This document shows positions 1,738 to 46,568 of a stretch of DNA of 64,000 nt, in pieces. Made by a program: the position numbers and the translations under genes. Every line of letters starts with the position of its first letter. The stretch's first letter is position 1. This DNA is from Aphrocallistes beatrix. Lineage: Eukaryota; Porifera; Hexactinellida; Sceptrulophora; Aphrocallistidae. Where the stretch lies: the NCBI GenBank assembly GCA_963281255.1, contig OY725504.1:3472001-3536000 (forward strand), in the 5' to 3' direction. The notes under the pieces are model-generated. The model saw nothing but the letters and a program-made list of their open reading frames with translations, was not told where the DNA came from and searched no databases.

Positions 1738-1740
1738 ATA

Positions 1741-3279: not shown

Positions 3280-6200
3280 CTACTGATGTTGATACTGTTG
3301 ATACCCCCAATCTTGCTGGTAATTATACTAAATAAGAAATAGGATAAACATTTGAAGTCACTCAATGAGGCGACCGCTATAATTAAAAGATAACAGTTTT
3401 TAGATATTCTTTTTAGAGAGTCTATTGTGGCTAGTTCTAAGGAATAAACAAAAGATTGAATATTTTATTGTCCTAGAGAGAGCCAGGATTCTGGGTAATT
3501 TTTCGATATCTCATTTGAATAAAAAGGTTCGAGGAATGATCATTAACTAGGTTTCATTAGAAATTTCAGATATTTAAATTTTAACACTACTGTATCGTAA
3601 ATTATTTAAAAATAATGTAGATCTTATTGCTGAACAATGAACCTTGTATCATAGGTTAGATACGAGAACGAAGTAATTGCTAATGGATTTCAGATGATGA
3701 TCCAAACTTTGAACTCATACAAAATCCATTAATTCATGTGTGCCGAATAAAAGAGATAATTAGACCAGAAAAAAAATTTAGTTTGTTGACATGGAATCAG
3801 AGATCTTGTTGATGGACTCATTATTTGAATTAATAAACTGAATATTCATGAGTGTAGTTTATTGGAGTAATTAGAATCTGGATCAGAAGATTAACTCTGT
3901 TCAATGGACGCAGTTAGTATAATTTTGCAATTGACAAGACTTAGAACATATGAGTCCATAGATAATGGAGTTGTTGTATGTCATTTAGCTTCAACATATC
4001 TTGAGAAGATAACCTATTGAAACATTGCACATAAAAGCAATGGAAATAATGTGTAGCAGTACGGATTAGATTTAGTTGTCAGTTAACTGGGTTCATTTCA
4101 TTGCTAATGCCTTAACGTTAAGATTTGTCTCTGATCTATAACATACAGCACAATACTTATAAGAGTATAATTAATATTAACATGCATCATTACAACCTGT
4201 TGTGACCACTGTTGGTTGGATTCTCCCATCTCCCCCCTGTTATACTGATAACCGCTTTGAGAAGCTTGGTAGTAAGGCGGGTAATTCTGCTGATTCGGAT
4301 CTCCGCTTTGTTGGTAGCTCCTGTAGGGGAGTTTAATTCAATTGCACAAACCTTTTTTTGTACATACTGCAATTGCTTATCTTAACTGGGAGCAGTTAAG
4401 ATAAGCAATTGCAGTATGTACAAAAACGCAATTAAGTAATGGCTTATTCTTGACGCAAATATATAGAAAGTTGTATTTCTTTGATGATACCATGTGTGCT
4501 AGTATGACATGGTAATAGAACTTAGAATGTGTTCTAGTAATACATTGATAAGAAAACCAACATGTTAATTTAACTACCCATTTGCTACGTAAGGCCCTAA
4601 TATCAAATTCCAATCATTCATTAGGACAGCCTGAATTGATGATATTATTGGACATGAACCACCCGAGTGAATAATGCGTCCGTTCTACATAATAGATAAT
4701 AAGAAATGTGGAGTTTGAATTCAGAAATTCGACGTAATTCTAGAATACCAAAGGATGTGAACGATAGGAGATATACAATGTACGCGCTATTGGACAACTA
4801 AATTCTTTGCCCAATTATAGTCGGCAGAAAAATTAATAAATACATTGAGAAATATTCAGTAGGTTGAGCAATCGGGTGTTAATTAATTATATAATTAATA
4901 TGTTCGGAGAATTGCGTTGATGTTGAACAATGCATTATTACTTCCGAGTTTTCGAGTGCAGTCGCGATACCATTGAAATCAATTAAAAATATGAATCAAA
5001 ATGAATGAACAGGAAAGATAAAAAATATTGCCATTTATCCGTTGATTTTGCGCAATTTCTGACGTTTTATCGCTACGGTTACACAACCAATTAATTCTTC
5101 AAATCCTACAGTTAAAACAAAAAATATTGTGCTAGAGAAGTTTAGATCTCGCAAATCAGTGCTACAATATTGATAATATCAGTAAAATAACTCACATATT
5201 GTGCTGACCCTGATCCGAGGAGTACATGCTTGAATCTACCCGTGAATGCTTAGCATACGAATCACTAAAAACAGATACTGTCATTAAAAATCTCAAAAAC
5301 AATTCACACAAGACCAGTGGAGTAATAGGATCACAAAAGAAGATGCAGTTCTGATGTGTTATACGTATGCTTGAATCATATTATAATTCACACAGCAGCG
5401 ATAATTTAAACTCAGGGCAAAGTTTTAACCAAAACCACGCTAGTCGATTAGTATCAATTAAGAATATAAAATTGAAACTATCGTGTTGGTATCAAACCTT
5501 GTACAATCGAATAGTGATGGACCAAGAAAATGAGCAGCTGCAAGTTAAGTCTTAAATTTGGCGACTCATGTGTTTTAAATTACCTCTCATATTCACTCGG
5601 TCGCTTTCTCAGCGCATGAGTAGCTGGAGCAGATGGAGAGGAAAATGACTTCTCACGAAGAGTTTTCAACTCGTTCATTCTAAAGAAAATCATTATTTAA
5701 TGAGAAAGGAACAATCATAATGACAATCTTATGTTCAAATGTAATGACTCTGCATTTAAATAAACTGATACAAGGTTGCTGACAGCAATGCAAGCTTATC
5801 ATGTCGTATACACCGATAATATCCCACTGATGTGTTTAGCTGCAAACATTGTGAGTGGGAGATGAGGGCAGTAGTATCCATATAATAGTATGATGTCAAA
5901 CCTTGAAAACTGGAGATTAGATAATAATTCCAGTAGGCAAAAACTACAAAAATAATTTTCACCAGGTGGACGAGATGAATTGATATTACTAAAGAGAGGT
6001 CCAAGTACAGGTTACGGATCAAATGATGAAATTGAAACGATGGTAGAAAGGATATTTTGTAATATGCTAGAACCTTATATGAAATCATATGTTAAGTAAT
6101 ACATCTGGCAGTAACTTGATTTTTGAAAACGTATTAAACCCAATTAAAATGCAATCAGAATAAGGTATTGGATGATCCAAACAGAAATACCGTTCCATCG

Positions 6201-20100: not shown

Positions 20101-23100
20101 GAGAAGTCCTGGGGAGGAATATGTTAGCGAAATATACGTCCCTCTCAAATTCAGGAGGATTATCGTTCACGTCTGTGACAGAGATGGTCACAGAGACGGT
20201 TGAACTAGGCCGGATAGAAATGATATCCTCATTCGTAGCTGTAACTGAGAAAGTATGAGAAGGAAAGGTTTCAAAGTCAAGGCTGGAGCCCAGAGAAATA
20301 CTCTAAAGAAATAGGAATTCTCTATAATATCGCATTACGTTGAATCACGAATAAACATTGATGCACTTACTCCATTTGTTGTACTTATCCCAAAGTTTAC
20401 ATCGGTCAGAGAATACGAAATCTGTTGCATTCTCTCTGTCCGAGCAGTCACAGATCCGAGTATAGTAGTGAGAGGCGCATTCTCAGGGATTAAGAATGTG
20501 TAGGAAGCCTGTGACCGATGCAGAAGAATAGTTACAATATCAGTTAACATCAACAAAGTTCAACAGTCAACTTTTAGACAGAAGTGGCAAGCAAAACAAA
20601 TTACAACAATAAAGCATAATTATCGTTGAATTGCATCACGGACCTCAATGCTCAGAAATAGCGAGGAACAAATATATTTATAATTTGATTTCTCTAAATT
20701 TATTTATCTTGCAAACCGAAACATTGGCAAATTTTAAAGAATTATAATCAACATGTTATCTAGATTTTGGTTAACATTCGGTTGGAAGTTTGCGAAAATC
20801 CAACCTGAAACTTGAATAAGGATAAATATATCATTGTAAATAAGCTAATTGCACAATTATGACAGACACCACAAAAGACCACTTTTCTTTACATTGAATT
20901 ATTCACTTTGGAGAACAATGAATACCTCGAGAAAGTTTGGAGTGTACTGATCCTGGTCTAGCACGATGGCGATATAGCTGGCAATATCATCATGAAACGA
21001 AGTATTGCACCGCAACACCATATGATAGATCAGTCTTCCTAACACCTCATTCACGATAACCTCACCGGAAGCTGAGTCTATTGTGAAGGGCCAATCACTG
21101 TGGTTAGCTGTTAACAGGGTATAGTGAATGGGGCGAGGACGGTCAGGTATGCAGAATTGTGGAGCGAGAATGCTTCCAGATGGAAATAGCATCGGGAGGT
21201 AGACCTCTACCACGAGCTGTGAGAAGTGCAGCGTCTTGATGACAGCTCTCTTGGGGCGTGAGGAAGACACTTCTCGTCTCGTCATAGAGCTGCACTTGGT
21301 GAGATTGAAGGTGAATGCGTCGGTGAAGCCAGTGCTATCTCTCACAATGACGGTATACTGAGATGGAACTGTTCGATCAAGTAAGTCTGGATCAGAAGCA
21401 AACACCATAACTAAAGTATAAATCTAATGTGAAAATAATATGGGGATATAATCTGTAAAATAAATAGATTTACTTTGGGAAATTGAAATAGAAATATTCA
21501 GTGTAGGGTTGCTGTGTGGGGAGAAGAAGAACTGGAGCACCTCATTCAGGTTGTTATCGAGGTAAGGGAGTGTGAGGAACGGATCAGTGCTGTTAGTACA
21601 GAACTGATTTCGCATGGGCTTGATGAAGGCAGGGGGATGATTGACATTGACAGTGAGGGTAACGGATTTTGTTTCTGAGGAAGCTAAGTCCTCAGCAATG
21701 ATTGACACTTGAAAAATTGTCTGATTCGTGGAATTAAGTGGCTGAGTGAGATTGACTCTCCCACTAATTGGATCGATCGCGAATATCAGGTCCGTGGATG
21801 AGTACCTGTCAAATAAAACAAAATTGAAACAGTGTCACCCATTATTGTACAATTTCGTAATTCTAATCACCTGATCTCACTGGTGAAATCATCATCCGTG
21901 GCCGTAATGGCTAGGTTTAACTCTCCGACAGGGGAAGTTACGTTCAGAACTAACTCATAGGAAGGTTGGGAGAATACTATCGGAAATTCGTTAACATCAA
22001 TTAGCTCAATATGTGCGTACACAAAAGTAGAATGCATTGGTCCAGTCTTCCCATCTGTTACTGTTATCACAATATCCCATTCCGTCTGTAGGACTGATTC
22101 TAAATTAGCTGGTTGTGTAAATAAAATTTCAAATGACCCTGTCCGAACAGTGCTGTTACAAACTTGAATGTTGGAAACAGTAGAAAATACGAAGTCGCTT
22201 GAAATTGCTTGTAGATTCGTGAAGCTACACGTGTCTGGGTCTGTACACTGAAACTCTGCGTCTGGAATATTAATCAGTGGAAATGCATTATTATCAATAA
22301 AAGTAAGAGATAGATTGGTGGGAGTGCAGAGAGGAGGCTCATCATCTTCATCGAGGATATCTATCGAGAATTGGTTGATGCCTGTGGATTTCCGAAACCC
22401 TGGCATCCCGTTATTATCCAATATGAGTAAATCGATGTTGATCCTTTGGCTTCCGGTCTGGAGTTTCAACACCTCCTCATCTACCTCGGCGATTATCGTG
22501 ACAACTCCAGTTTTATTATCCAACGATATGTATTCAATGTTATTCGAACCCGCTTCACCAATGACATAAAAAATCTCGCCGAAGACTCCGCAATCCGCGT
22601 CACTAACTCTATCCGCGATTTCTAGAGATCTCTGGACTACGATTGGGAAATCCTTCGTACGTGTTTCGTTTATTTGAACAAACAAAGGAAACACACCCAT
22701 AACAATTGGATTGTTTAGATTCTCAGGTACCAGATGAACCACAAACTCAAAACTTGTCGTATCAGAAGAATTGAATGAATTATTGCAAATTAGAGCCAAC
22801 TCATATCTGAGCTCTTGCACACAGGGAGGAGTCTGCATTGCTACGATTTGGCATACAGGACCCTCAGTTCCATGAGAAACAACAAAAACCGGTTGGCCGT
22901 TATTGCTATTTAAGGGGTTAGTTGAGGCTACGATTGAACAAGAGAACCCCACTGGGAAACTATCAGCATCTGTGCAACTGAGGTTAGCAACAACGCCACT
23001 GCTCTGTGATTGCATTATCTGAAAGTGGCTATCATTTCCCATAAAACCGATATTGATAGGGTTATCATTGAGGTCTATAACTCGGAAGTAGAAAGGGACA

Positions 23101-26100
23101 GGCATACTCCTCTTAGGCGGGATACCCGTGTCCTCAACATAGACAGTTATGGTGTGGAGGATGTCATGCTCTGGGGTTTCTCGGTCAAGTGAAGTGTTGA
23201 GAGATATCGCACCAGTTAAGCTATCTATTGCTGCGACGTAGGGATAGTCCTGAGTTATGGAAAATATCAAAGACTCGTTCAGGTCAGAATGTTGGACTGT
23301 TATATTGGCTATGACAAGTCCAACTGGGTTGTTCTCAGGAACAAAAACGAGAGTGGGTTGATCTATGATGGGTTCAAACTCATTTACAGCGTACACTTCA
23401 ATGAGAAGAGAGACGGATTGGTTTAACGAAGGATTGGTAGGGTCTTGTATCAGCACCTGCAGGGCGTAGTTGGTAACACTCTCAAAATCTAAATCAGTGA
23501 GAACATGCAACACTAGAGCATTCGTAGTTCCCTGGACAGGAACCATTTCAACACTGAATATCGATGTAGTGCCTGTGTTTAAGATCTGTGCAGTCATGTT
23601 AGTAAATGTGTCACTGTCTGAACACATTATTCTTGTGGTAAAGCTGAAAGGAGACATGGCTTCTGGGAGGAGAAGTGTGTCATCAGTGTAGAGACATTCT
23701 GGAGGATTATCATTTAAATCAGAGATAGTTACAGTTAGCTGAATGACGCTGTTAATGGCTGTGAGACCAGTGAGCAAGTCGTCTTGTACTATTATTCCAA
23801 TCATGACGGTGCTTACTAGCTCAAAGTCAATCGTTGCATTCACTGACACCTCACCCCTATCTCGATCTATCTCGAAGTGCTGACCCATAGGGAGCTGACT
23901 TGAAATAGAATAACGATAGGATCCTTGCATTGCACAATCGGGATCAACGAGGAGAGAAGACACATCGAAGATAACTCGGCCTAAAGCTTCGTTTTCATTC
24001 ACAGTCAGAGACACGAGCGTGGAGCTGGCTACAGGGACATTCAGGTTCTGAGGTGTAATGGACACATTGTAGGTGGTCGAACTTTGTCTGGAAGGAATCC
24101 CTGTGTCATTACATACAATGTTAAACTGGTATAGCAGTGCATCGTTACATACAACCGGTCGTTGGAGAGTAATAGCAAATCCTGTCTCAGTGTGATTTAG
24201 TACAAAAATACTCGAGACGATGCTAAAAGGAATCGAATCAGTGCGAATTCGACAGGTAAACCCATCCCCCCTGTCGGCATCTGACACATTTATGAAGGCG
24301 ACAGTCGTGCCACTAACAGCTCCTTGCAACAAGGTGGTAGAGATGGGGATTTCGAATTGGGGGTTGAATTCATTCACATTTTCAATTGTAATGTTAAAGT
24401 ATGTCTTATTCGTGTTGGGGGGAACTCCTCCATCAGAAGCCAATGCTCCAAAGTGAAAAACAACAGTAGATTCATAGTCAATAATCGCAATCTGATTTAG
24501 TTCCCCTGTGTGACTATCTAGTTCAAATTGAGAAGTATTACCCTGGGAAATATCTACAAAACCAGCAGTAGAATCATAACTGGCTGTGATAAGTGTATAA
24601 AAAACAGTTCCGAATCTGTCTTTATCAAGATCACGAGCGGTGATTGTAGCTACGAGAGCAGGAGATGCGTTCTCAGTGATAGACAGTACTGTAGGGGGGT
24701 TGAGGAAGAAAGGGGTGTTATCATTTATATTTTCTATGTAAATGTTCACTGTGAGGTTGGCAGTTAACTGGGGTACACCAAGATCTGTGACTGAAACACG
24801 GACAGTGTAAAGCTCAATAGCTTCAAAATCTAAAGCTTGCAAGGGAGTGATAGACACACGAGAGTGTGAACTGTTCAAAAAAGATTTTTCAAAACGAAAT
24901 AAATCCGAGCGGTTAGATGAGAAAGTTGTCGAGAGCTCGCCGTTCAAACCACTATCTAAATCATAGCAGATCGTAGAGATGATCTGAGAGGCTAAAGATC
25001 CCTCTGCGATCGAGATATCGATTGAGTGGACAGTGCAAGTGGGCGGGTTGTCATTGCTGTCTGTAATCAAGATGGTACCATTGAATCTTGCTTCTCGAAA
25101 TGATCCGATTCCTAAGTTATCCCGCACTATTATCTCCAGTGTTAGGGTAGGGGGGTTCCCGAATATAGGATCATCAAAATCTAACTTATTTATCAAACGC
25201 AGAATCCCATCATCAGTTACTGTGACATAATTCGGGCTATTGGGAATTTGATTATCTAGCGAATACCGCAACACACCAAAATTCCCACAATCTCCATCAC
25301 TAACATAGGCACTCAGATCTCCAATCACGTGTCCGAGAGGTGTGGACTCAGAAAGAGTAAAGCTAACCGTGCCGTTCTGAATGACAGGAGTTTGAAGATT
25401 CTCTAGCATAACACTCACTGAGGCTAGGAAAGAGCTGCTGATGCTGGGAATGCCTTTATCAGTGCAGTTAATTGTGAGGTTATGGTTAAGTGGGACAGAA
25501 CAATTGGGGACTGGGTTACCCTCAATGGATAGGGTACAGGACTGTGACACACCCACGTTAAAACTGAATAACTGGATGCCTCCAAAAACAGGAGACATTA
25601 TATCACAATCAAACATACGGCTGATTCCCTCGTCTCTGTCAATGCATGGGAAAGTACCAACAATTCCTAAAGGTATGCTCTGTCGAATATCTATTGATGT
25701 GGGAGGTAAGGTCAGTACCGGAGGATTATCATTAAAATCAGTAACCACGACGCTAATATTGAGAGTTGCTGTCCTGTTCGATGGAGGAGCAATCTCAGTT
25801 GCAGTGACTTGAATCTCATATCCAGAAACTGATTCCCTATCGAGGGAAGAAGCAAGCGAGATTAACGCTGTGGTGCTATCTATACGGAACTTTTCGTTCG
25901 GTATAACGCTAAGGGAATAGAGAGAGATGTGTTCAGGAGGATTATCAAGATCCATTGCTGTTGCGTTAAATACCGCAGTGAGTATGTTAAAGTCCTCTCT
26001 TATGGGGAGAATTAGCGAGGTAGGAGAGTAGAATGGCCCGTGCTCGTTGATGTTTCGAACTAGTATTGTTAGAGATATGCTGTTCACACTATAGAGTGGA

Positions 26101-29100
26101 GGAGAGCCACCATCAAACACTCTGATATGCAGCACATAACGGGAGGAATTCTCGTGGTCAAGTAATTGGAGCAGCCGTACATTCAGCTCTGCCGAATTCT
26201 TATCAAAATCGGCTGTGATATTCAAAACCTGAAACCTTTCACGGATTCTTAAGTCCGTATTGTTTATTTCAAAGTTAACTAAAGAAAATATCGAGAGATC
26301 CCCTAGAGCATCACGGGAGAGATCTAGATCGTCACATATTATGGAGGTGGGGAATACGGATCCAATTGGGGAGGTTTCTGGAATAATTATAGAATCAGAG
26401 TATTTTTGGCAAACAGGACGATTATCATTCTCATCTACAAATTGTACTGTAACGGTGTTGGGTGGTCCTGTCCCTTGACAAGATGGAAGTAATTCCGGAC
26501 AATCAAACACCTTCACTGTACTAGTCACGCGATGGGACTGACCAATGAGCAGCATATCTTCATCGAAATCTATCGAGTTGTTGAGATAAATATTTCCGTT
26601 ACTTGATATCAAATATCCAGGTATGGAGTTGGTTATGCTAAAGTATGTCTGATTGAAAGGATCGCAATCAAGATCTGTGAAATGCAAAGAAGATGTGCTA
26701 ATAAGCTTAGGTATGAGTTGATTCTCAGATATATTGGTAAATCGTGGGTAATACCCTCCAACTGATACCGGGTTGTTAAGATTTTCAAACTTGACACTGA
26801 CAGAGAATGGAAAAGACCTGACAGTGCGCAGTGAGATGACGTCACATAAATCAGTGCAGTTTATGACGAGATCGAATCTGGGTACACAGGTCCCGTTAAG
26901 ATCCATATCTAGAAGCAAGTCACAGCCGGACATCGAGAAGAATGGAACCCCTAGGTCAGGAGATATGCCGACAATATCGCAAAAAATCAATCCATTCGCG
27001 CCGGAATCTAAGTCAGAGCATGGAAAGCTCTGTATCACCTTATTCTGATTGCTGTAAGCACTCTGATTGATCTGTACGCTGGACTGTGAGTGGTTAATGA
27101 TAGGAGGGTTGTCACATACGTCTAACACACGAATCGTCGTCTCGTATAAACGCAGGTTATAGTAGAAAGCGTTATCAACCGCACGTATCGTAATGTTATA
27201 TTTTTTAACACCTTCAAAGTCTAGTTTGCCAACGACCCTCAATTCTCCAGTATCATTATTAATGGAGAACTCTTCATAGGGATTAATGCTATGAATAGAA
27301 TATGAAATCAGGAGGCTAGATTGGTTCGGGGTGTGTACTGCTGAGAATACTGCTACTGGGGTATCAGGAGGAGTGTCTTCAGGGACGCTAGGTGAGCTGA
27401 TCGGTGTAAATTCAAACGCAAATCCTGACTCACCTATCAACACGCTAACAACATGCTCTGTGACCAAACTAGAGTCGTTCTCGCCAATCGTTATAGGTAT
27501 AGGTAGGTATACGGGGAATGATGAGGTGGAGAGAGCCTGGAAAGAAGAGATCGCTGAGACAACTCCTTCATCTGAGACGTTGAAGTAGCTAGAGGCATTG
27601 CTAGAAACGCTAATTGAGTAGAAGAGCAAGTCAGTCAGGTTGTCTGGGTCTGAACAGAAGATTTGCAACAAGAAATCAGGGAAGTGATTGTCAAAGTCTA
27701 ATCGAAGGGTCGGCAGAGGGTCACACTTTGGACCCTCGTCATTTAAGTTCAGCACAACGATCCTCAAAACTGTTGAATTGTACTTCCGAGGCCGTCCATT
27801 ATCAGTAGCATTGAACAAAACCACATACTCCTTCACACGTTCATAATCTAGACTTTGTAGCAAGGAAAAAGCACCTGTATTAGAATCTAGCGAGAAAATA
27901 TCCTCACTGGGGGAAACGACCTCATAGCTGAGAGTGATATCTCCAGGAGGTCCTGTGTCATTATCAGACACCTGGATTCGTAGGAGAGTGGATAGGGTAT
28001 TATTTTCTAACAACTCAATGGAAGCGGGTGTGTTAACGAACTGAGGATGGAAAATATTCTCTGTGACGTAGATGCTAACTATCTCCGTCGTGTTGAGAGG
28101 AGCTGGGTTGATCCCTTGATCCGACACAACAACTGTGTAGTTATACAGACCCACATTCAGAACACCTAGGCCTAGTATCTCTCCAGTCGTAGGATCTACG
28201 GTTATGTTTGGGTCTGTACTTCCTCCCAGTAGAGAGTAGGTGAGGACGTTATTCGGAGATTCAGCATCGGTATCCACACAGTTAAGCGGTGGGGTAAGTG
28301 GAGTTGAGGTTGCAAAGAAATTTCCTGTGATATGTCGTTGTGTGAAGCTAACGCATTGGGGAGTGACGTCATTGATATCTAGAACTGTTAGCGTTATGAC
28401 GGTGCTAGCTTGAATGTTAGCATTGAACATGTCGTGAGCTGTGACTGCTATATGGTGCACTCGCTCCAGTTCTCTGTCTAAGCTGGAGCTCAGCTCTAGC
28501 ACACCTGTAATGTTATCAAGGCTGTACACAGGACTAGGTTGAAGAAGGGAGTATATTATTTCACTGGAACTTCCGGTCTGGCTGTTGAATGCCATGATTG
28601 TGACAAGTTCCACCCCTCTCACATTCTCTGACACATTAACGGAGTACACATCTGAAAAGAGCAGAGTTGTGGCATTCAGTATGCTGAGGGTTAGAGTTGT
28701 GGTTGCAGAGACTATTTGGGTGGATCCGTCGATACTCAGCAGTTCAGCTGTCACCTGAAAACCAAGCTGATACTGGCTGTTAGCCAGTCCGGGCGGTAGC
28801 AGCATACCAAGTTTCACCTCACCTGACTTCGTGTCTATGACTATAGCGCCATTACTGGTATCAGAAATGATGGAAAAGGACTGAGTCACGAAGTTGTGAG
28901 GAGTAATTGAAGCGAGTGAGAGCATTACCTAATGACAGAGGAGGTATAAATCTCGTTATCTCTGTTAAGATGAAGGAAAAGTAGCAACCACTGACTTCTA
29001 TTATTAATGTCCCAACTCCTGCATTCTCTGCTATCTGAGCGGTGTATGAACTGGTGTCAAACTCAATGAATGGGATAATCTGGAGGTTGACCCGGGCAGA

Positions 29101-32100
29101 GTCCTGTAACGGGGAAGATCCCTGATCCGTACACCTGACTGTGAATGAGTAGCGAGGGGTCTGAGTGAAGTCTAGCAGTGTGCCAGACGTAAGCCGTCCG
29201 GAAGAGTCGACTGAAAACGGAGTTGAGCTGACTTCTAGCGAATAACTAAGAAGCAAGTATGCATTCAGATTCAACTCCAATCAATTAGTATGCCACAGAT
29301 CCTATCTACCTAATTATCCCATTTGCAACATTGCTGTTGTCCGGATCAATGCAGACGACGTTTCCGACTTCGGAGTTGAGAGCTGCTGTCTCTAGGACAT
29401 CAATGTTGTATATTTGATCCACAAACGAAGGCAGCTCATTCACATCATCGATCACAACTGCCACCTGCCGTACAGAAGTCTTATTTCCCACCTCGCAGTC
29501 GGTACCAGAGGGATCAAGTTTGTCTGTCACTTCAACATTCACGAAATAACCACTTCTTGACTCGTAGTCGAGTCGAGAGAATATGCGTATCAACCCGTCA
29601 GCATCAAGAGAGAAGGGAATATCGTCTAGGGAATACAAAGTTGGTAATGTTCGAATAAACTGAGGTTAGTTGCTCGATAACTTACTCGGAGGGTTAACCA
29701 ATCTATACTCAATCTCTCCATGACTCCCACTGTCCCTGTCGCTTGCTTCTAACTGGATCGAGAAGGGAGTGAGCACGTCCTCTCCGACGTGATACTCAGT
29801 TCTAGTTAGCGATGGTGGGAACTCATTGACAGGAAGGACAGTGACTAGGATTGTGATATCTTTCGTAAGAGCAGAGTTCAATCGGTCTGTTACAGTAACA
29901 GTGAAAGTCAGAGATGTGGCATCTTCATAGTCGAGGGTAGAGATGAGTGTGAGTTGACCATTTTCCTCCTGAAAACAAAATTTTAAACAGCTACTGACAA
30001 ATACCATCTATGAGTGTAATAGAAAAGTACATACATTGAACTTGGAGTTTGAGACTGTGTAAGCGAGACTGGAAGAGAAGTTATAAGAAGGATGATAGCA
30101 CCTAATGTCTGAGATAAGACCAAGAGGCGTGTCTTCACACAGCTGGAATAGGAGAGGAGAGGTGCAGGTAAGAGCTGCTGGGTCCGTCTGAGTGACGTTG
30201 ATGACGACAGCGGCATGGGAGGGGTAGTAAGGAGCTCTCGGATCTTGACAAGTTACGAGCAGAGGAACGAAAGGAGTATTCAAAGCATTCAATACACTGT
30301 TTACTTGTAACTACAAAACAGTAGAATCTTAATAACTACACAAGCTTAATTAAATCATGGATATGCATTAGTATACAGATTCAATATAATAATATCACAA
30401 AATTTTTCAGTACAATCTAATTAGTCGTCTTATCATGTCTTCTGATAAACCTGTGCTGATCAATGGCGAAATAGTGAACCCCAAAACAGCTGCCATATCT
30501 ATATGGGATGTGACCACACAGCGAGGAGACGGGCTATTCGAGATAATAGCCATTGAGAGGAGTGGCGAGGGGAAACTGTTACTGGTCGGGTTAGATCTCC
30601 ACTTCGTACGTCTGTTCAGGTGTGCGAAGCAACTTCTACTCGACATCAAGCAGACCGAGACTGAGTTGGAGAGTTGGCTGAGAAAGGCAGCTGAATTGGG
30701 CGGACCGGGTAAGCTGAGGGTGCTAGTCACCCGCGGCGGGACACAGGACAGCATTTCTCACATGGGAGCCGTGGATATAAACGACATAGCACCTCCGAAG
30801 GTGATAATTATATGGCAGGAAGTGGACAATTACAATATACCTGAAGGCTTGTTACCAGTCGAATACCCGTGGAACTGCAGTAAGAGCGAGGTGCATTCGA
30901 CCATCAAATGGCTAAGCTATGCTTCCAATATGCTCATGACGAGGACAGCCGTGAAAGCGGGCTTCGATGATGCACTACTGACGACGGAAGATGGGATTGT
31001 GCTGGAGGGACCTACGTTCTCTGTTTGCTGGATAAAAAATGGAGAAATATTCACACCTTCGGTGAAGGAGACAAAGATCCTACCCTCCATCACAATGGCT
31101 ATTACGATGACTGCAATGCATAATGCAGGGTACAATATCAATGTTGGAAGGTCAGTAATTCTTTTTACACCAGAAAACAAATCGCTTTTCACCGATATTT
31201 TTTAGATATAAACTGGAAGCACTCCTCAGTGCAGATGAAGTGTTCATAGTTTCCACTACAAGGGTACTGATCCCCATCTCCAGGATAGGAGAGCAACAGT
31301 TCAAGATTGATCTGGGAATGAAGTTACGCGAGGTGGCGAAGAAATCGCTGATTGAGCGAGAGAATTGGATCGGCCATCTTGACTCATCATACGACTTCCC
31401 ACTCGTAATATAGATTATAAACGCTATCCATAGTTAATAATTATTACTTATTAGTGCTTAGATCAGGCTTTGTGAAACCAATTACCTCTCATTAGTATGC
31501 GTTGCCATTGTGTCTACATGACTATAGCCAAGTTTTTAGAAAGTGATGCGAATGGCAGATATATCAAGAACTACCAGTTCTTGTAAACAGTTTGGAGGCA
31601 ATGTCTCTGAGAATGATAGCTATTATTCACAGCGAAATTGAGTTTTCAAAAAATATTAAATCATTAGTATGGATTATCTGAGTACAAATTATCATTTCGT
31701 AATCTTTATTAGAAATTAGAATTGATTAAGATGGTTTGTGAGAAATGCGAGAAGAAACTAGGCAAGATAGCTACTCCAGACGTATGGAAGGATGGAGCTC
31801 GCAACACGGTGAGTAGCGGCAAGGTAAAGCTCGGAGAGAACAAACTCTTGAGCGGGAAGAAGAGTCGATTTTCTCCCTACACCGTTTTCAGGGCTTGCCG
31901 TCTGTGCAAAGATCAGCTGCACCAAGTTGGATACAACTACTGCCCAGCGTGTGCATACAAGAAAGGAATATGCGGCATGTGTGGCGTGAAGATACTGGAC
32001 ACGGCGGGGTACAAGCAATCAACCGTTTAGCCCGATTGAGAGTGAGGAAGGGAGGTGTTAAAAACTGTTTCAAGTGTAACTTTCACAAGGATTCAATGGT

Positions 32101-35100
32101 CTAAACGAATTAAACAAAAAGCAAAACTACTTACGATTTCATTCTTATTACTATTTACAAATAATTATAATTAGCTGACGCAATTTACAATTTTTTCCGA
32201 ACTAATCAATAGAGTTAATGATATTGGGTAATGTCAAAATATTCTCTGAAAACCTAACGTCATATTATTAATGATAATGTCAAAATCACGATTATTCTAG
32301 CAAGTATAACAAATCTTTAGTAGGAATTTGTTAGATGTAGAGATGGCATCTTATGACGGCAGGAACAGCCTACCTATCGACCAGCACCCCAACGTCTACC
32401 ACGCCGTGAACCCTTACCAGCTGGAGGACAAGAACCCAGCGGTCGAAGAGGAGTACGTCAACCTAATGGCACTCGACTTCAGCCACAAGTGCGTAGTGCA
32501 GAAGTGGAGCATGCTCCAGAGCTGTACAGACATCGTCCCGGCTAGGAGCAAGCACACGACTGTCTCCTGGGACGGAGGGATATACACATTCGGTGGGGAC
32601 GATGGGAAGAAAATGCTGAACGACTTGCTGGTGTTCAGAATCGACAAGCGGAGTTGGGACAGAGTGTACACTTGGGGCAGCCCCCCCTCTCCTCGCTACC
32701 ACCACTCAGCTGTGGTATTCAGAGACAGTATGTTCGTATTCGGGGGCTACACAGGAGACACCAGTGCACAGCTAAGAAACCAGAATGACCTGTTGGAATT
32801 CAAGTAAGATTGACTTTAATTAACTTTACGCACAGTTATGATCTCGCTTTCTAGGTTTATCAACCGCCACTGGGTGGACTGGTCTGACGTCATCAGAGAA
32901 CCGTATCCGGCTAGCAGGTCGGCGCACGGTTCCTGCGTCTACCAGAGCTACCTGTACATATTCGCCGGTTACGACGGCACCACGCGACTTAATGACATGT
33001 GGCGAGTGAACATCTCCACACACAGCTCAGTGCAGTGGGAGTCAGTGAGACAGGTGGGGGAGAGCCCGCCCACCTGCTGCAACTTCCCCATGGTTACGAG
33101 CAAGGACAGCATGTATGTATTCTCAGGACAGAGCGGTGCCAAGATAACAAACAACCTCTACCAATTCTCATTCACGGAGCAGGTACATAGCTACACACGT
33201 ACTACCCAACCCAATCAATTAATTCTTGAGATTCCGTAGGCATGGACGAAGATACAGACGGAGTACTTGCCAAGGTTCGGGCCCTACCCCCCTCAGAGGC
33301 GATATGGACACACCATGGTGGCGTACGAGGACTTCCTCTACGTGTTCGGAGGGTCCTCGGATGGGACACTCCCGAATGAACTGCATAAGTTCGACGTGGA
33401 GTACTGCTCTTGGGAGAAAGTGGAGCCTGCGCCTGGATCGGAGATCCCGAACGGTCGACTGTTCCACTCAGCCGCTATACAGGGAAACCGGATGTACATC
33501 TTCGGAGGAATGATCGACTCCTCCCCCATCAGACTCTCAGACCTGTTCAGCTTCCACTTCGCCAACTACCCCAAGTGCACCCTCCCAGAAGACTTCGCTT
33601 GTCTCTTGAAGAGAGGGGAGTTCTGTGACTTAAAGTTCGTGGTGGGGAAGCACGAAGAAGTGATCTCTGCACACGTGGCAATGGTCGCAGCGAGGTCTCC
33701 CTACTTCAGGAGACAACTCCTGATCACAGGTGACAGGAATAGCATATAGCTCTATGCGAGAATTGTGATCATATTAGCTCTTGTTAGGTAACTTTTCGAA
33801 TCCAGGACCTAAAGGCATCCAACCACATGACACCTCAACTCTGGTTCTGTCCGATCAGGATCCAGAGGCGTTTAAAATCGCGCTCCACTTCCTCTACACA
33901 GATCAGATCCTCTGGCCTAAAGGCATTATTGGTGATTCAAGCTCGCAGCTAAGGTATCCAATCTCAGTTACACAGATTCTGAACGGAGATAAACCTACGC
34001 GTTTCTATTAGGAGTCTCAAGTGCATGCTGGAGCTGACCAAGCTGGCCATTCTGCTGGAGACGCAGAAGCTGGAGATGCTGTGCATCCACTACATAGAGA
34101 ACGCGGTCAGCGTAGACAACGTCCTGACGCTGCTGATGACGGCTAGCGAGCTGAGCCTAGGCAAGCTGAAGGAGTACTGCATCAAGTTCATCGTGAGGGA
34201 CGGGCCTTACCAGCAGGTAGCAGAGTGTGTGTCTTGCTACTGCCAGCATTTGAGTGTGTGTTCAACTAGGTGGCGATGCTCCCTGAATTTGAATGCCTGG
34301 ACAATGCACTGATTGTGGAGATCGTGCGTAAGCAACTGAAGCACTCGAGAGGTCTTCCCTCGCAGGAATCTTGCACGCAGTCCGAATACAGCTACAACCC
34401 TACCACGCTCACGCCCCAATTCTACCCAACCCTGGAGTCGGACATGACAGCTTTTCTAGAAGATTTGGGACTACAATTCGCTGATATCTTACTGCAAATT
34501 GGACCGAAGAAACTCCCTGCACACAAGTGCATCTTAGCGGGCAGATGCAAGTATTTTGAAGCGATGTTCAGATCTTTCATGCCATCTGATGCTAAAGTTA
34601 ACATCACATTCGGACAGGTAGGAACAGGACTCTAACATAAGTACATTAATGGCATATGCGATGATGCGTGTTTGCGTGTAGATCGAACCGTCGTGTCAGT
34701 CATTCAAAACTTTGCTGAACTACATTTACTACGGAGATGTCAGGATGCAGCCGGAAGATGCGCTCTACATCTTCCAAGCGCCTAACTTTTTCGGGTTCAA
34801 CAACTCCAGATTGCAAGTATTCTGCAAGGAAACATTGGAGCAACGGATCACACACGACAATGTTATAAACCTGTTAAGAATCGCGAACGAAATAGGCGAA
34901 GAGGAAGTGAAGAAATTCACGCTTGAACTTATAGTTGCTGATTATAAAAAGGTGTTTGAAATGTCAGATTTTGGAGAACTTTCAAAAGATCTCCTACTGG
35001 ACATACTTGAATCGCTGGCCAAGAAATCTTGAAAATGCATAGCAGATCAATTGTATTGCATTGCATTGTATTGTCTTACGAGTGCTCTCTGATTGTAGTC

Positions 35101-37638
35101 GAACTGTTGTAATAGCTTCCAGAATAAACTGAATTTACTAGAATGTAGGGTTAAGCTAGCAATTTATAAGAAAAATAACGAGAAAGAATGGCGAGCACTG
35201 CTCAAAGTCTACCGAATAGTCTTCAATACAAGGACTATACGATTCGGCACTGGAAAGCGAGTGACAGGGAAATTGTGGTGAATTTGATCGACAAGTGCCT
35301 CAAACCGTATGGCATTCTCTTAGATACGGACAAGGGCGGAGCAGACGAGGATGCACTTAAGGTGGAGGAGTTCTACGAGAGAGATGGGAGGGGGGAGTTC
35401 TTTGTAGCTGAAAAGCGTGGAGAGGTAGTGGGGACAGCGGCGTACTATCGGATTGACAGGGGTGCAGATGCGGTGGAGATACGCAAGATGTATATTGTAC
35501 CAGAGTGTAGGCGGTGTGGACTGGGGAAGAACCTGATGGAGGTGCTAGAAACCGCGATCCGGAAACGTGGTTTCAAGAATGTCTACGCAGAGACAGCAAG
35601 TGTTCTACTAGAAGCTTGCAAGTTCTATCCCTCACTGGGCTACCACCCCGTCGAAGATAAACCTGACACAAAGAGATGTGATATTCTACTACACAAGTCT
35701 CTAGTCTAGGTTCCATTTTGTAGTCTATTTTCATAACAATTTAGTCCCATTATTGCTAACCTCGAAATGATCTGTCTGCAGTCATAATCCTAAAGCGAAT
35801 TCGAATCGAACAAAAAAGAACAGTCATAGTCCCAATTTAACAAAAAAGAACAGTCATAGTCCTAATTTTACGAAAAAGAACAGTCATAGTCCCAATTGAA
35901 CTAAAAGGAACAGTCATAGTCCCAATTTAACGAAAAGGAACAGTCATAGTTCCAATTTAACGAAAAAGAACAGTCATAGTTCCAATTTAACGAAAAAGGA
36001 ACAGTCATAGTTCCAATTTAACGAAAAAGAACAGTCATAGTTCCAATTTAACGAAAAGGAACAGTCATAGTTCCAATTTAACGAAAAGAACAATCATAGT
36101 TCCAATTTAACGAAAAAGAACAGTTATAGTTCCAATTTAACGAAAAAGAACAGTCATAGTTCCAATTTAACGAAAAGAACAGTCATAGTTCCAATTTAAC
36201 GAAAAGAACAGTCATAGTTCCAATTTAACGAAAAGGAACCGTCACAGTTCCAATTTAACGAAAAGGAACCGTCATAGTTCCAATTTAACGAAAAAGGAAC
36301 AGTCATAGTTCCAATTTAACGAAAAAGGAACAGTCATAGTTCCAATTTAACGAAAAAGGAACAGTCATAGTTCCAATTTAACGAAAAAGAACAGTCATAG
36401 TTCCAATTTGCTCAAAAATAACAGTCATAGTTCCAATTTAACGAAAAAGAACAGTCATAGTCCCAATTTAACTAAAAGGAACAGTCATGGTTCCAAATAG
36501 TGGAATGCTTGTTGCTTGGCAAATGCTAGAAGGAATTAGGGTGTCCTTACGTTGCTAGGGAACCATTAAATGGAATGTAGGCTAACCTTATGTTGCTAGG
36601 GAATCGTTAGAAGGAATGTAGGTCTCTCTTATGTTACTAGGCAATCATTAAATGAAATGCAAATTGTTCTTACGTTGCTAGGGAACTGTTAGAAGGAATG
36701 TAGGGCGTTTTATGCTGCTAGGGAACTATTTGAAGGAATGTACGGCGTTCATACGTTGTTAGGCAACAATTAATGGATTATAGGGTGTCCTTAAGATATT
36801 AGTGAACCGTTAGAACGAATGTAAGGTGTACTTATGTTGCTAGGCAATCATTCAAAGAACGTAGAGTGCCCTTACATTGCTAGAACGTTAGAACGAATGT
36901 AGGTCGTTCTTACGTTTGCTGTGATAGCCTGCTTCTCTGCAATATTATTCAATTAGCGAATTCGAATAAAAGGATACATTCGCACGTAATTAATTTGTTG
37001 TTTAGCTCAAATCTACTATGTAGCTGTATTACAACTTTACAAATGTTTCATTTGAAATCTTAATTATTTTACTTAACTAAATGAAGCTAAATTATTCTAC
37101 ATTACAGCCTATGTTCTATCTCACCGTGCCGTTACCAGTCAGTGTGAACAGCCCCTCCATCTGCGGGAGATAGCGTTCTAGTGATAGAAAGCGCGAGAGG
37201 GTCTTGTTTGTTTGGTAATCTTTGCACGTAAAACTTTGTAGTATTGTTCCCTTAGGAGTAGATTCTACCACGGACCGCTTCAGGATGTCTGGGCTTATGA
37301 AAGGTCTGTAGTTGTCTCCATTCGATTTGAAATGTACAGAGAGGCTTAGAACCCCTAAACATAGCAAATGCTAAGAGTAATTTACCCAATAAAAGTGGCG
37401 TCATATCCCAAACCTGCAGAATGTATGATAGAGATAGCGTACGTAGTTTCAGAGAAGGGCTGGACAACTAGTGTGAATATGTTCATGTCGAGATTAACTT
37501 TATCTCTATCTGCAGTCGACTGGATGGAGTATGGTGCTCTGCTCTGCGGCACTAGGTCAGGGTGTGACAGGGTGTCTAGATCTCCGATGAGTGTCCCAGG
37601 CGTAGAACTTAATGGGAGGAACACGTCGACCTGCTGAC
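17178..37638 (-). CDS. giant cadherin-HRM-GAIN-7TM adhesion GPCR (flamingo-like), 5' end not found
   Basis: At least 20 exons encode more than about 4,070 residues. Main exons in order: about 37638-37414, 37354-37125, 30310-30035, 29968-29686, 29625-29310, 29245-28996, 28928-21871 (7,058 nt), 21805-21474, 21410-20926, 20508-20371, 20302-20072, 20010-19678, then HRM/GAIN exons to about 18720, GPS exon 18655-18503, and 7TM exons 18434-18047, 17986-17823, 17767-17483 and 17417-17178. The extracellular part is roughly 25 cadherin repeats, many with DxNDNPP linkers. A hormone-receptor domain follows (WPET, ICPETPE, RGNWEFPDMSNC), then a GAIN region, a GPS and seven membrane helices. I see no EGF or laminin-G domain, which CELSR/flamingo proteins carry between cadherins and HRM. 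The GPS keeps its cysteines (CSCEGQG) but lacks the usual His-Leu-Ser/Thr cleavage triplet. An RPKR furin-type site lies near 21230. The signal peptide exon was not identified. The exon join over the 6.8-kb intron (37125 to 30310) keeps the cadherin fold and frame. Confidence 0.88.
30435..31413 (+). CDS. fold-type-IV PLP aminotransferase / aminodeoxychorismate lyase-like
   Basis: Two exons (30435-31150, 31206-31413) encode 307 residues. The protein belongs to class IV aminotransferases, the fold of branched-chain and D-amino-acid aminotransferases and aminodeoxychorismate lyase. Landmarks are the N-terminal RGDGLFE, the likely PLP lysine in STIKWLSYASNML, and the DDALL/EGPTFSVCWIKNG segment of the cofactor site. 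Its exact substrate cannot be read from sequence. The sequence looks nearer to ADC-lyase/D-amino-acid-transaminase-like proteins than to animal BCAT. No targeting peptide is evident. The gene lies inside the large intron of the cadherin receptor on the opposite strand and is the first of four genes there in the same orientation. An alternative description is a BCAT-like protein of unknown role. Confidence 0.85.
31414..31730. other. short spacer between aminotransferase and CRIPT
   Basis: AT-rich sequence in which I see no gene or repeat. It must hold the 3' end of the first gene and the promoter of the second. Confidence 0.5.
31731..32030 (+). CDS. CRIPT: CRIPT, cysteine-rich PDZ-binding protein
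   Basis: This is a single-exon 99-residue protein, almost the same length as the 101-residue human protein. It starts MVCEKCEKKLG and carries the family CxxC pairs: CEKC, CRLC, CPAC and CGMC. It also carries the conserved KDGARNT and YKKGICGMC segments. The C-terminus is QSTV, a class I PDZ-binding tail like the human TSV ending. CRIPT binds PDZ proteins such as PSD-95 and is also a component of the minor spliceosome. I chose the ATG at 31731 because it gives the family N-terminus exactly; an upstream in-frame TTG is not used. It sits between the aminotransferase and LZTR1 inside the receptor intron. Confidence 0.95.
   Translation: MVCEKCEKKLGKIATPDVWKDGARNTVSSGKVKLGENKLLSGKKSRFSPYTVFRACRLCKDQLHQVGYNYCPACAYKKGICGMCGVKILDTAGYKQSTV
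32031..32342. other. short spacer between CRIPT and LZTR1
   Basis: AT-rich spacer in which I see no coding exon. Confidence 0.5.
32343..35032 (+). CDS. LZTR1: LZTR1, kelch-BTB-BACK adaptor for cullin-3
   Basis: Seven exons (32343-32803, 32855-33182, 33240-33729, 33788-33953, 34012-34216, 34270-34617, 34682-35032) give 2349 nt, 782 residues, all joined in phase by introns of 51-64 bp. The N-terminal half is a six-blade kelch propeller with family-specific strings such as PSPRYHHSAVV, FVFGGYTGD, IFAGYDGTTRLNDMW, SGQSGAKITNNL and RRYGHTMVAY. Two BTB-BACK units follow, the first beginning at CDLKFVVG and the second at FADILLQIG with KYFEAMFRSFMP and LLNYIYYGDV. LZTR1 recruits RAS-family GTPases such as RIT1 to cullin-3 for ubiquitylation. 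Length and domain order match the human protein. The gene lies within the large receptor intron. Confidence 0.95.
35188..35709 (+). CDS. GNAT-family N-acetyltransferase
   Basis: This intronless gene encodes 173 residues covering one complete GNAT domain. The acetyl-CoA pyrophosphate-binding motif A is clear: IRKMYIVPECRRCGLGKNL, with the R-x-x-G-x-G/A element RRCGLG. It is followed by the expected helix (LMEVLETAIRKRGF) and the late motif-B strand and SLGYHP loop. The acceptor substrate cannot be told from sequence; candidates include small amines and protein N-termini. The start at 35188 is the first ATG of the frame, 156 bp after the LZTR1 stop on the same strand. It is the last of the four genes nested in the receptor intron, and the minisatellites begin about 110 bp downstream. 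Confidence 0.88.
   Translation: MASTAQSLPNSLQYKDYTIRHWKASDREIVVNLIDKCLKPYGILLDTDKGGADEDALKVEEFYERDGRGEFFVAEKRGEVVGTAAYYRIDRGADAVEIRKMYIVPECRRCGLGKNLMEVLETAIRKRGFKNVYAETASVLLEACKFYPSLGYHPVEDKPDTKRCDILLHKSLV
35821..36497. repeat. minisatellite, 29-31 bp unit, about 23 copies
   Basis: Tandem copies of a unit resembling CAGTCATAGTTCCAATTTAA followed by CGAAAAAGGAA run without interruption. Length differences between copies come mostly from the A-run (4-6 A). Copies at the left edge carry TCCCAATT and those in the middle TTCCAATT, so the array shows positional sub-types. It is non-coding in all frames and lies in the receptor intron. Confidence 0.95.
36505..36920. repeat. second minisatellite, 41-bp unit with RFX X-box-like core
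   Basis: About ten diverged copies with a steady 40-41 bp period start at 36511, 36551, 36592, 36633, 36674, 36714, 36755, about 36796, 36836 and 36876. Each has a core close to GTTGCTAGGGAAC or GTTGCTAGGCAAT, followed by a GTTAGAAGGAATGTAGG-like arm. It directly abuts the 31-bp array but has an unrelated unit. Confidence 0.85.
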
Positions 37639-38758: not shown

Positions 38759-39730
38759 TTATTGGTTGCGGGTGGTGGTAAAAACATTCGAAAGTTTGGC
38801 GTTCCTACCGTCGTGCATGCAGATAGCATTGTTTAAATAGTAGTCTATTAGCTCTTCAACCGAACTGAATCTTTTCGAGATGGACTCTCCTAGGATGAAC
38901 GAGTTGTCCGGCTTCTTCTGCACTCGGAAGTGCAGGATCTGTCGCTGATAATAGATGGAGAGGGAGTAGTTTCCAGATGTACGAGTCATGGAGGGTCGAA
39001 CCACGAATCCTCCCTCGATCGATAGGTTCAAGAGCTGCTGCTCTGCCTCTTTTCTTGACATTCCTTCCCGGTACCACGGGTAGTCCAACGGGGTAACAGG
39101 GCGCGAATCTGTCTCCTCGAGCAGTGGGGACGTGACTCCTGAGTTTGGGGCTGTTCTAGGCGGGAGGGGGGGAGGGGAGGGGATGGTAGCTTCGATTGGA
39201 TCATTTGCTTCGTGCATGCTTAATATCATCTGGCGCCTTGTCGGTCTTGGGGGGTTACTGGAAGGGAGACGTGGCATCGTGCGGACGATGGGGCGTGACA
39301 GAGGTGTGGGAGATGCGATTGGTGACGTGGAAGCAGAATTAGGCGCTGTTCTGTAACCACATGATAAAATGTGTCTTGAAGCAGAGTCTAACTCTCCAGT
39401 CCACTCACACCCCTTTTCATGCTCTGTGCACTTGATCTTGAATGAGTTGATGAGTCGTTTTAGAAACAGGTCGTCTTTGACTTGTTGTCTGGAGATGGGC
39501 TGGTTGTCAAGCGGACACTTGAGAGAGAACCCAGAGTGCGAGATGATATAACTAATGCATGGCTTGCAGAAGATGTGGCCACAATTTGAGATCTGTTGAG
39601 GGTCCCTGCACACGCCGCTACAAATGGCGCATTGGAATTGTTCAATGTTGTCAATGAAAAGATCAGAATCATACCCGCCTTTAATCTTGCCCACATCGAC
39701 CAGTAGAGCTGAGAGATTCACTTCAGCCAT
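38759..39730 (-). CDS. RING (TRAF-type) - zinc finger - SH2 protein
   Basis: This intronless gene encodes 323 residues. Residues 34-75 form a RING of the C3HC3D type typical of TRAF proteins: C34, C37, C50, H52, C55, C58, C72 and D75, ending CPLDNQPI. A TRAF-type zinc-finger remnant follows (C101, C108, H120, C124). Residues about 130-210 are a Ser/Pro-rich linker with PxxP runs such as PPPLPPRTAP that could bind SH3 domains. Residues about 216-320 are a complete SH2 domain (YPWYREGMSRKEAE, FVVRPS with the phosphotyrosine-binding Arg, FSSVEELIDYY). The SH2 most resembles the SLP-76/BLNK adaptor class. A likely role is an E3 ligase recruited to phosphotyrosine proteins. In human CBL the order is the reverse (SH2-like part before RING). 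No TRAF-C/MATH domain is present. Confidence 0.88.
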   Translation of the reverse strand: MAEVNLSALLVDVGKIKGGYDSDLFIDNIEQFQCAICSGVCRDPQQISNCGHIFCKPCISYIISHSGFSLKCPLDNQPISRQQVKDDLFLKRLINSFKIKCTEHEKGCEWTGELDSASRHILSCGYRTAPNSASTSPIASPTPLSRPIVRTMPRLPSSNPPRPTRRQMILSMHEANDPIEATIPSPPPLPPRTAPNSGVTSPLLEETDSRPVTPLDYPWYREGMSRKEAEQQLLNLSIEGGFVVRPSMTRTSGNYSLSIYYQRQILHFRVQKKPDNSFILGESISKRFSSVEELIDYYLNNAICMHDGRNAKLSNVFTTTRNQ

Positions 39731-43331: not shown

Positions 43332-46300
43332 ATGAAGATTGTAAATAGAGTAATTACGCTCATCACAGTTTGTGTGCTAACGTGTAATGGAGGCAATGGG
43401 GCTGACGGGGAAGTTACACTCGGACAAAAGGCAAGAGTGGTGGTGTATGTGGATGAAGAGATGAGGCCATCACTGCAGAAATTAGCATTAGGTAATGGAT
43501 TTGATTACTTGGGTAGAGTGAAAAATCCAGATCCGATGTGGGACGGATACTACGTGTTAGAAGGGAAGGCTATAGATGCCGAGATGGAAGGGTTGAAATC
43601 GATTGGAATTGAGCATGTTATGATGGAGAAGATGGTAAAATTACACTAATTCATTTAGCATTTTATAAGGTGTTAAAATCGTTCTAATGTTATTATTAAG
43701 GAAATGAGAACTAAACGGAGTTTGACAGAGCCAAGAGATCCTCTATGGACGCAGCAATGGAACCTGAGACCTCGAGTGGATAAGTACTACCTACGAGAGT
43801 TTGAGAATATGAACCAGCTGCCCGCATGGGGCAGGGGGTACACGGGAGAGGGGGTGGTAGTAGGTATCGTGGATGAAGGTGTTGATTACACTATCCCAGA
43901 ACTAGCAATTAAATACTTCTCAAATTACAGCTTTAATTATTTTGGTAAGTGAAACCGTGTAATATAATGGCACTAATTATTAAATATTAGAACTTGAACG
44001 TACGTAGACAATGACTCGAATCCTTTCCCGAATAACTCTGGGAATCATGGCACAAGTTGTGCAGGGTTAGCAGCAGCAGCGAGCGACACGATGTGTGGAA
44101 TTGGAATGGCACCTGATGCTAACCTAGCGGCCATAAAGATATTCAAAGATGGAGATAGCAACGTCTTCACAACAGATCTGACTGAAGCAATGGCTCTATC
44201 ACATGAGCTTCAGCACATTAGCATTTTCTCGAATAGTTGGGGTCCTGCAGATACGGGTTATACCCTAGGAAAACCAGGGATTCTGACAAGAAAGGCTATA
44301 GAAGCGGGTTTGGAACAAGGAAGAGGAGGGAAAGGGTCTATTTATGTGTGGGCGGCTGGGAATGGGAGAGTGGAAGGGGATAATTGTGGAAGTGATGGGT
44401 ACATACAGCTAGTCGGTAAGTTCATTGAAGTATCACCCGTATTGCAGCCCCTTGATAACACGTGATTCAATTATAAGGTACAATCACTGTGACATCACTA
44501 GCTGCCGATGGCAGAGCCGCAGAGGAGGCAGAAGGCTGTGGAGCCGTGTTGATAACAGCATACAGCAGCGGAGTGTCATATCATCCATGGCTGATTACAT
44601 CTCCCGGAAGCCTAGGCGGAGAATGCAATACAAGATTCGGTGAAACCTCAGCAGCTACAGCTGCTATTAGCGGTGCTATAGCATTGATATTAGAGGTGAG
44701 GAATTAGCATAACAAGTATTTCGATGCCATCTTTACATTATTTCTTAGGCTAACCCTAGTATGGGCTGGAGAGATGTGCAGCATGTGCTAGTCAACACAG
44801 CCAGAAAGGCAGACCCATCGCATAGTGGATGGAAGCGGAACGCAGCTGGATATTGGTTTAATGAACAGTTCGGATTCGGACTTGTCGACACTTTTGCAGC
44901 GGTCAGCAGAGCTAGAGTGTGGGAGAACGTGGGAGAGTGGATAAGATGTACACATGCTGGAACGGTGGAGAGAACGATAACAAACACCGACGAAATTACG
45001 CTGATTAGGTACAGCTATAATTCAAGCTATTGTTTGAACGGTAGCATCAGTTACTTGGAGCATGTAGGTGAGTTCAAACATTAAATTTTGAGAAGAATCG
45101 TCGTTATATCTCCATACTAAATCTATTAGCTGTCAAGCTCGAGAGATTCACAAGTGCTAACAGGAGAGGCGGCTGGAGGATATCATTGATATCACCTGCA
45201 GAAACAGAATCTGTATTGCTCTATGAACGACCTTCAGACTACAGTAATACAGACTTTCAGAATTGGACGCTGTCCAGCTGTAACTTCTGGGGAGAGAATC
45301 CTGAAGGGGAGTGGACCTTAAAGCTAGAACACGTCGATATGATGGTTGACAGCAGTATCATTGAAGTGAAGTTTGTCTACTATGGAACAGCGACTCCTCC
45401 TTCCAAGAGGAATTCTGTTAGTGGAGATTGCGGGGGACAGTGTGCTGGGAAATGCACAGCAGAGTCAAATGAGTGCGATAAGTGTGCTAAGTATTACAAA
45501 GAGGCTACAGGGTCTTGTACCGATACATGTCGCGATGAAGGGGAGATAGCAGAACTGGAGTTGAAGAATTGTAGAAAATTTAGGGACATGGAACACCCGG
45601 AAGTGTACCTGAAAAAAGGTGTGAAAAATGGGAATGTTTATACGAGGTATAACGGCAGAGACCTCCTGCTATGCACTCCTTTAATTCTCCAGAATTTCGC
45701 AGATAGAATTTGTGAAACAATGGATTATTCGAAAGCAGAATCGATCCGCAACACAAGCGGATCTATCAATAACTCTAGTTTTTCTGCAACAGCGATTAAT
45801 TGCGATGAATTAACGTGGGAAACTCCTCCATATCAATGCTTAGGTAGCATTAGTGAGGTTAAAGTGTGTGACTCCTATGTATGGGAGATAAAGTGTACTG
45901 AGTATTTTCATAACTGTACATACCCTGAAGAGCAGATACCAAACGGGAGGTATATCACTGAAAGAGGAGAAGCCTTGTTACAAGATAAGGTGTTAAGAAA
46001 TGGGAGCAAGTTATTCATCAGCTGTAATAAGGGATATGTGACAGAAGGAGACATATTCCTACCATGTGTTGACGGCCAGTGGGACAGCGAATCCAGGTGT
46101 CGGCTGGCAGAATATCAGGATATCTACTTAGATAGACAAGTGTCTGCTCTTTCTTATGGGCTACTGACTTACTATGAATTGAATGCGATGGGGTCTTTAG
46201 AAGAATATTCAGTTTGTTATGATGACAGATACAGCATGTGGGACGAGAAGAATGGACAGGTAGCGTGCAGACAATTGGGGTACACTGGATTTGAAGCTGT

Positions 46301-46568
46301 GATGGGTGTAGCTACTAGAAAGTGGAGGAAATACCTAACAATTTCCTTCGAATGCGACGGGAGAGAATCTCAACTCAGCGAATGCGGCTATTTAGAGAAT
46401 AAGTTGGTTAGGTGCAGTCGACGAGTCTCAATAAAGTGCAGTGACGTCATGAGAATGGGACAAGTGGACCCAACGAGTAATGGGAACTTCAACACTCTTA
46501 GCTCCATTCTACATTTGTATATTCTGTTGATTTTAATGTACTTGAGCGGGAACATTTTTAAGCATTAG
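43332..46568 (+). CDS. furin/kexin-like proprotein convertase with Sushi and SRCR domains
   Basis: Six exons (43332-43634, 43701-43944, 44008-44415, 44478-44695, 44749-45067, 45130-46568) give 976 residues in phase. Order: signal peptide (residues 1 to about 24), inhibitory prodomain, autocleavage-type site RTKR at the start of exon 2, and an S8B subtilisin domain. Its residues are Asp in GIVDEGVD, His in NHGTSCAG, oxyanion Asn in WAAGNG and Ser in GETSAATA. A P domain follows (about WRISLISPAE to VKFVYYGTA), then a Cys-rich furin-type repeat (CGGQCAGKC, CDKC), a Sushi/CCP-like module (CTYPEEQIPNGRY to CRLAE), an SRCR domain (VACRQLGYTGFEAV, SECGY) and a C-terminal hydrophobic segment that may be a GPI signal or membrane anchor. 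All catalytic residues are present, so it should cleave precursors at basic sites in the secretory pathway. The Sushi-SRCR tail is not part of any vertebrate PCSK known to me. Confidence 0.9.

Follow-up and report, generated by a model that had tools for sequence, protein, structure and literature searches.

Four complete genes probably nested antisense in a single intron of an adhesion-GPCR-like cadherin gene in the glass sponge Aphrocallistes beatrix

The locus described here lies in a 64 kb window, the whole stretch of DNA that was analyzed, which has a GC content of 43.1% and contains no N. Base composition varies along this window. Positions 1-14000 have 31-36% GC in all seven 2-kb bins, compared with 40-56% in 22 of the 25 other bins, and only eight frames of at least 100 aa overlap positions 1-14300. 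On the minus strand, a cadherin gene with adhesion-GPCR-like features extends from ∼37.64 kb down to 18.0 kb or beyond. The gene model consists of 13 exons (A-M) between 37638 and 19406 that form a stop-free frame of 3,462 aa. One of its 12 introns measures 6,814 bp. An earlier, sequence-only reading of this DNA placed the remaining receptor introns at about 50-400 bp; in the model they comprise nine of 59-68 bp (including K-L, 60 bp, and L-M, 59 bp), one of 41 bp, and one of 417 bp.

The first exons of the model encode cadherin-like repeats that are split between exons. Exon A (37386-37638) carries most of the first repeat in an open frame that is in phase with exon B, and by itself it is insignificant against a cadherin profile (4.3 bits, E 5.8). 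Exon B (37125-37344) contains the end of repeat 1 and the first half of repeat 2, scoring 12.6 bits (E 0.016) when the receptor's own cadherin profile is searched against 1466 six-frame pieces. Splicing of A to B has two solutions, either an acceptor before 37344, which leaves a 41-bp intron, or an exon start at 37354, in which case exon A ends at 37414 and the intron is 59 bp. The latter start, given previously as the exon boundary, is a possible acceptor but only one of two, and in our judgement the acceptor before 37344 gives the more usual cadherin length. This choice has no effect on the connection of exon B to exon C, because the B-C join scores 23.6 bits with the 41-bp intron and 23.7 bits with the 59-bp intron. 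Exon C (30035-30310) completes repeat 2 with its second half and begins repeat 3, and is followed by exons D-F (29968-29686, 29625-29310, and 28996-29245), which match Pfam Cadherin. Exon G (21871-28928, minus strand) is a single coding exon of 7,058 bp made of cadherin repeats in a gene of otherwise short introns; it contains 12 scored cadherin stretches and matches Pfam Cadherin with an E of 5.4e-120.

The downstream part of the gene is less sharply defined. Exons H-M (19406-21805, minus strand) end in a hormone-receptor-like (HRM) stretch that is under the Pfam cut-off (E 0.0059). Beyond the modelled exons, a frame piece at 18398-18655 on the same strand matches the GPS motif (E 0.00028, 21.8 bits against a cut-off of 22.5) over positions 2-36 of the 45 in the profile, and a probable start of the 7TM region at 18042-18434, also on the minus strand, matches 7tm_2 in one piece (E 0.015, 15.0 bits against a cut-off of 20.6). 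The neighboring pieces at 18529-19401, 17817-18008, and 17390-17818 match no Pfam family at E≤0.1. Receptors of the CELSR/flamingo type are cadherin adhesion GPCRs in which cadherin repeats are combined with EGF, laminin-G, HRM, GPS, and 7TM regions. Like these proteins, the sponge receptor has cadherin repeats, together with motifs resembling HRM and GPS and a weak match to the secretin-type 7TM region, and the best PDB match of its N-terminus among the matches listed is CELSR1. Unlike them, it shows neither an EGF nor a laminin-G domain in the scanned pieces, exons H, J, and M not having been scanned singly. The host was previously called an adhesion GPCR outright. The GPS, HRM, and 7tm_2 matches behind this assignment are weak or borderline and stay below their cut-offs, and the gene is best read as encoding a putative cadherin adhesion-GPCR-like receptor.

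The long intron between exons B and C (30311-37124, minus strand, phase 0) contains four genes and two minisatellites. The genes all lie on the plus strand, are complete from start to stop without internal stops, and have coding regions wholly inside the intron, as had been claimed from the sequence. The first (30435-31413) encodes a class-IV (fold IV) aminotransferase of 307 aa with one 55-bp intron. It covers the full Pfam Aminotran_4 profile (1-223 of 223, E 1.5e-34), and its relatives in the PDB include branched-chain aminotransferases, ADC-lyases, and D-amino-acid aminotransferases (best E 1e-16). The second (31731-32030) is an intronless CRIPT gene of 99 aa (Pfam Cript, E 1.6e-32) that is full-length, since residues 1-99 align with residues 1-101 of a solved CRIPT (PDB 7dvq_0, E 7.5e-41). 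LZTR1 follows (32343-35032), encoding 782 aa and interrupted by six introns of 51-64 bp. Its domain order is kelch, then two BTB stretches and BACK, and residues 52-370 match the kelch part of a solved LZTR1 (PDB 9mey, E 1.7e-123). The fourth gene (35188-35709) encodes a GNAT acetyltransferase of 173 aa, also without introns (Pfam Acetyltransf_1, E 5.2e-18).

These co-oriented genes are separated by gaps of 317, 312, and 155 bp. The ATG of the aminotransferase gene is only 124 bp from exon C, so that the promoter or 5′ UTR of this gene probably reaches up to the host exon or into it. Six introns in LZTR1 and one in the aminotransferase gene have been kept, and therefore these two are not simple retrocopies; the intronless state of CRIPT and the GNAT gene by itself says little on origin. 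Both of the minisatellites reported earlier are present at the other end of the intron, one with 22.9 copies of a 30-bp unit (35809-36496) and the other a degenerate array with 9.6 copies of a 41-bp unit and 67% matches (36530-36916). A search for inverted repeats framing the block gives 16 short imperfect pairs (at least 14 nt), and in no pair do the two arms lie at opposite ends of the block.

Whether this arrangement is a nest depends on the exons at both ends belonging to one gene. The junction had been described as a phase-0 join between 37125 and 30310 that completes a cadherin repeat, and both parts of this description agree with the present results. The donor of exon B, ACG|GTGAGA (after 37125), and the acceptor of exon C, TTTTGTAG|TTACAAG (before 30310), are both present, canonical, and in phase 0. 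When joined, the 120 aa around the junction align to positions 4-93 of the 93 in Pfam Cadherin, with an E of 0.02 and 15.7 bits, short of the curated cut-off of 28.8. Neither flank matches alone. Exons A and B without the join return no Pfam family at E≤10, and exon C without it has no cadherin match at E≤1.

Profiles built from the receptor itself give a sharper view. A first, cruder profile drawn from 11 repeats of exon G is less decisive, scoring the join at 9.3 bits, a value matched by six of 1000 shuffles, three of 639 plus-strand joins, and 43 of 1103 minus-strand joins. With a second profile, built from 17 receptor repeats that all lie after residue 448, the join scores 25.0 bits. None of 1000 shuffles equals this score and none of the 639 plus-strand acceptor joins reaches it, while 49 of the 1103 minus-strand joins do, the B-C join among them. 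A minus-strand rerun under a laxer length rule again yields 49 joins, now out of 2109, and all of them fall inside 19406-30310, among the receptor's own repeats. None of the 185 acceptors inside the host intron reaches the B-C score in that rerun, the best scoring 16.3. Besides exon C, the modelled acceptors among the 49 joins are those of exons D and K, both in phase 0. Skipping of exon C, with B spliced to D, may thus be compatible with the score alone, and it would lose 92 aa, among them the beginning of repeat 3.

Other measures weigh against the junction. In a PDB search with the joined N-terminus, the 60 matches listed include no best stretch that crosses the join at residue 157; all begin no earlier than residue 158. 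The donor of exon B is the lowest-scoring of 19 donors (leave-one-out score of 2.5) and ranks 91st among 452 GT sites, while the acceptor of exon C ranks 15th among 387 AG sites; splice-site scores for the join are not decisive. On the phase and repeat-completion tests, the reading that the flanking host exons form one gene and would be spliced together is well supported.

The weak donor of exon B also speaks for a rival reading in which the receptor begins within the 6.8-kb interval, antisense to LZTR1 and its neighbors, with exons A and B a separate or decayed cadherin fragment and the four genes partly outside the receptor gene. Phase-0 minus-strand candidates for such a first exon occur, for instance an ATG at 35066 with the donor CAA|GTATGT at 35007 and an ATG at 34249 with the donor CTG|GTAAGG at 34211. 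A receptor of this kind, however, would begin with half a cadherin repeat, and the missing half is found in exon B, in phase. Exons A and B alone would comprise under two repeats and end two codons past the donor without a membrane anchor. A search of 275 intron pieces in six frames reveals no cadherin-like sequence in the intron on the strand of the host; the best cadherin-profile score in either orientation of the intron, 7.0 bits, lies on LZTR1's own strand. Outside the receptor exons, no cadherin-profile match is better than E 0.8 among the best 22 of 1466 six-frame pieces of the window. An internal first exon is an unlikely explanation.

A receptor start near 30.3 kb, which the sequence-only reading had itself named as one observation that would overturn nesting, was also examined. 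The codon directly before exon C is an in-frame TAG, and Met is absent from the 375 aa translated from exons C-F, therefore receptor translation cannot begin there. Upstream of exon A, the search for a signal-peptide-like first exon, up to 39900, gives only weak candidates, none decisive among the best 12 listed; an ATG at 37923 with the donor TTT|GTATCG at 37857 is an example. The next coding region identified upstream on the same strand (38762-39730) encodes, in a single frame, a protein that carries a RING finger at its N-terminus and an SH2 domain at its C-terminus, the opposite of the RING/SH2 order in Cbl.

Further frames lie beyond this point. At 45075-46568 on the plus strand, one frame starts its domain series with a proprotein-convertase P-domain and continues with Sushi and SRCR domains, and it adjoins frames at 43.3-44.7 kb that are labelled subtilisin-like by reading. 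Between 46657 and 60072, on the minus strand, tightly packed co-oriented frames include one that matches DnaJ weakly, a protein kinase, a DHHC palmitoyltransferase, NSUN2, and a frame of 1,553 aa; measured from stop to stop, the DHHC and NSUN2 frames overlap slightly. In its gene content, with the cadherin receptor, LZTR1, the Sushi/SRCR convertase, and an SH2 protein, the window looks like animal DNA.

A different account of the locus is an error of assembly, by which an unrelated contig was misplaced within the receptor gene. Two minisatellites stand at one end of the block, and such repeats are a common site of assembly errors. The window nevertheless holds no N, and the 30.3-kb side has no reported tandem repeat, with only 124 bp between the receptor exon and the ATG of the aminotransferase gene. 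An artefact of this sort is most improbable. Taken together, the locus probably represents four independent, complete, co-oriented genes nested antisense in a 6.8 kb intron that interrupts the second cadherin repeat of the receptor. Transcription of the host would continue across the block, with all 6.8 kb removed from the pre-mRNA by splicing, and each nested gene would be driven by a promoter of its own on the opposite strand.

The compact spacing of the four genes also raises the possibility of a polycistronic unit, an operon resolved by spliced-leader trans-splicing and nested as a unit. They share an orientation, their gaps are those given above (317, 312, and 155 bp), and the first ATG lies 124 bp from the receptor exon. 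Against this, the acceptor-like sites within 120 bases before all four ATGs are no better than those of shuffled sequence (232, 303, 333, and 363 of 1000 shuffles do equally well). Rfam detects no RNA family at gathering score in the window, although the gene for a leader could be located outside it. Among the matches listed in a literature search, no report of an intron-nested operon was recognized, which is not proof of absence. The operon is for these reasons an unlikely interpretation. Still more doubtful is its extension, in which an antisense operon was inserted whole into a receptor intron of the 60-bp class and a single event brought a housekeeping operon into antisense competition with the giant receptor gene.

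Two origins had been offered for the nest, block insertion or the loss of intervening receptor exons. Loss is not required, as the two half-repeats meet without a gap (positions 4-93 of 93 in the Pfam profile), and nothing specific was found in its favor; it can be considered highly improbable. Insertion of DNA into a short intron fits better, because the repeat is split without a missing piece, and may have taken place as one block or stepwise. Most likely, one or more gene-bearing segments would have entered a short phase-0 intron at the DNA level, and the minisatellites would later have padded the intron.

Multi-gene nesting in one intron had also been called rare, a view that does not hold against the published cases, according to which it is not exceptional in animals. 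Intron 30 of NF1 is described as containing three antisense coding genes, OMG, EVI2A, and EVI2B, in a host of ∼283 kb (PMC4394429). The sponge locus is similar in that one intron houses several coding genes, each of them antisense to the large host. It differs in packing four unrelated genes into 6.8 kb, and most of the other modelled introns of its host measure ∼60 bp. In the fly, the last intron of CG18675 is reported to hold the coding sequences of five genes, the TipE cluster, which belong mostly to one gene family, lie on mixed strands, and are largely conserved across insects (PMC3240667). Here too the coding sequences of several genes share one host intron, but the four are unrelated and all on the same strand.

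Larger surveys point in the same direction. In the compact genome of the ctenophore Hormiphora californensis, 1,654 host genes are reported to contain 2,357 nested genes, accounting for 12.24% of exonic bases, and a figure legend describes four genes nested in one host gene, two of them doubly nested (PMC8527503). That case resembles the present one in number, while its annotation is based on Iso-Seq and the nesting described here is read from genome sequence alone. For the glass sponge Aphrocallistes vastus, 2,432 nested genes (12.4%) are reported in a compact genome where introns are short and many genes consist of a single exon (PMC10282587), the figure being a genome-wide count and not specific to the receptor locus. 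The locus in A. beatrix is a crowded case of a known gene-within-gene arrangement and not a new phenomenon.

As such, it offers a clean, compact case in which several unrelated genes share one intron of a host whose other introns are tiny. It also carries a warning for annotation, since automatic gene prediction may split the receptor in two at the long intron. The locus is useful for understanding how nests form, by block or stepwise insertion, and how transcription in two directions is handled.
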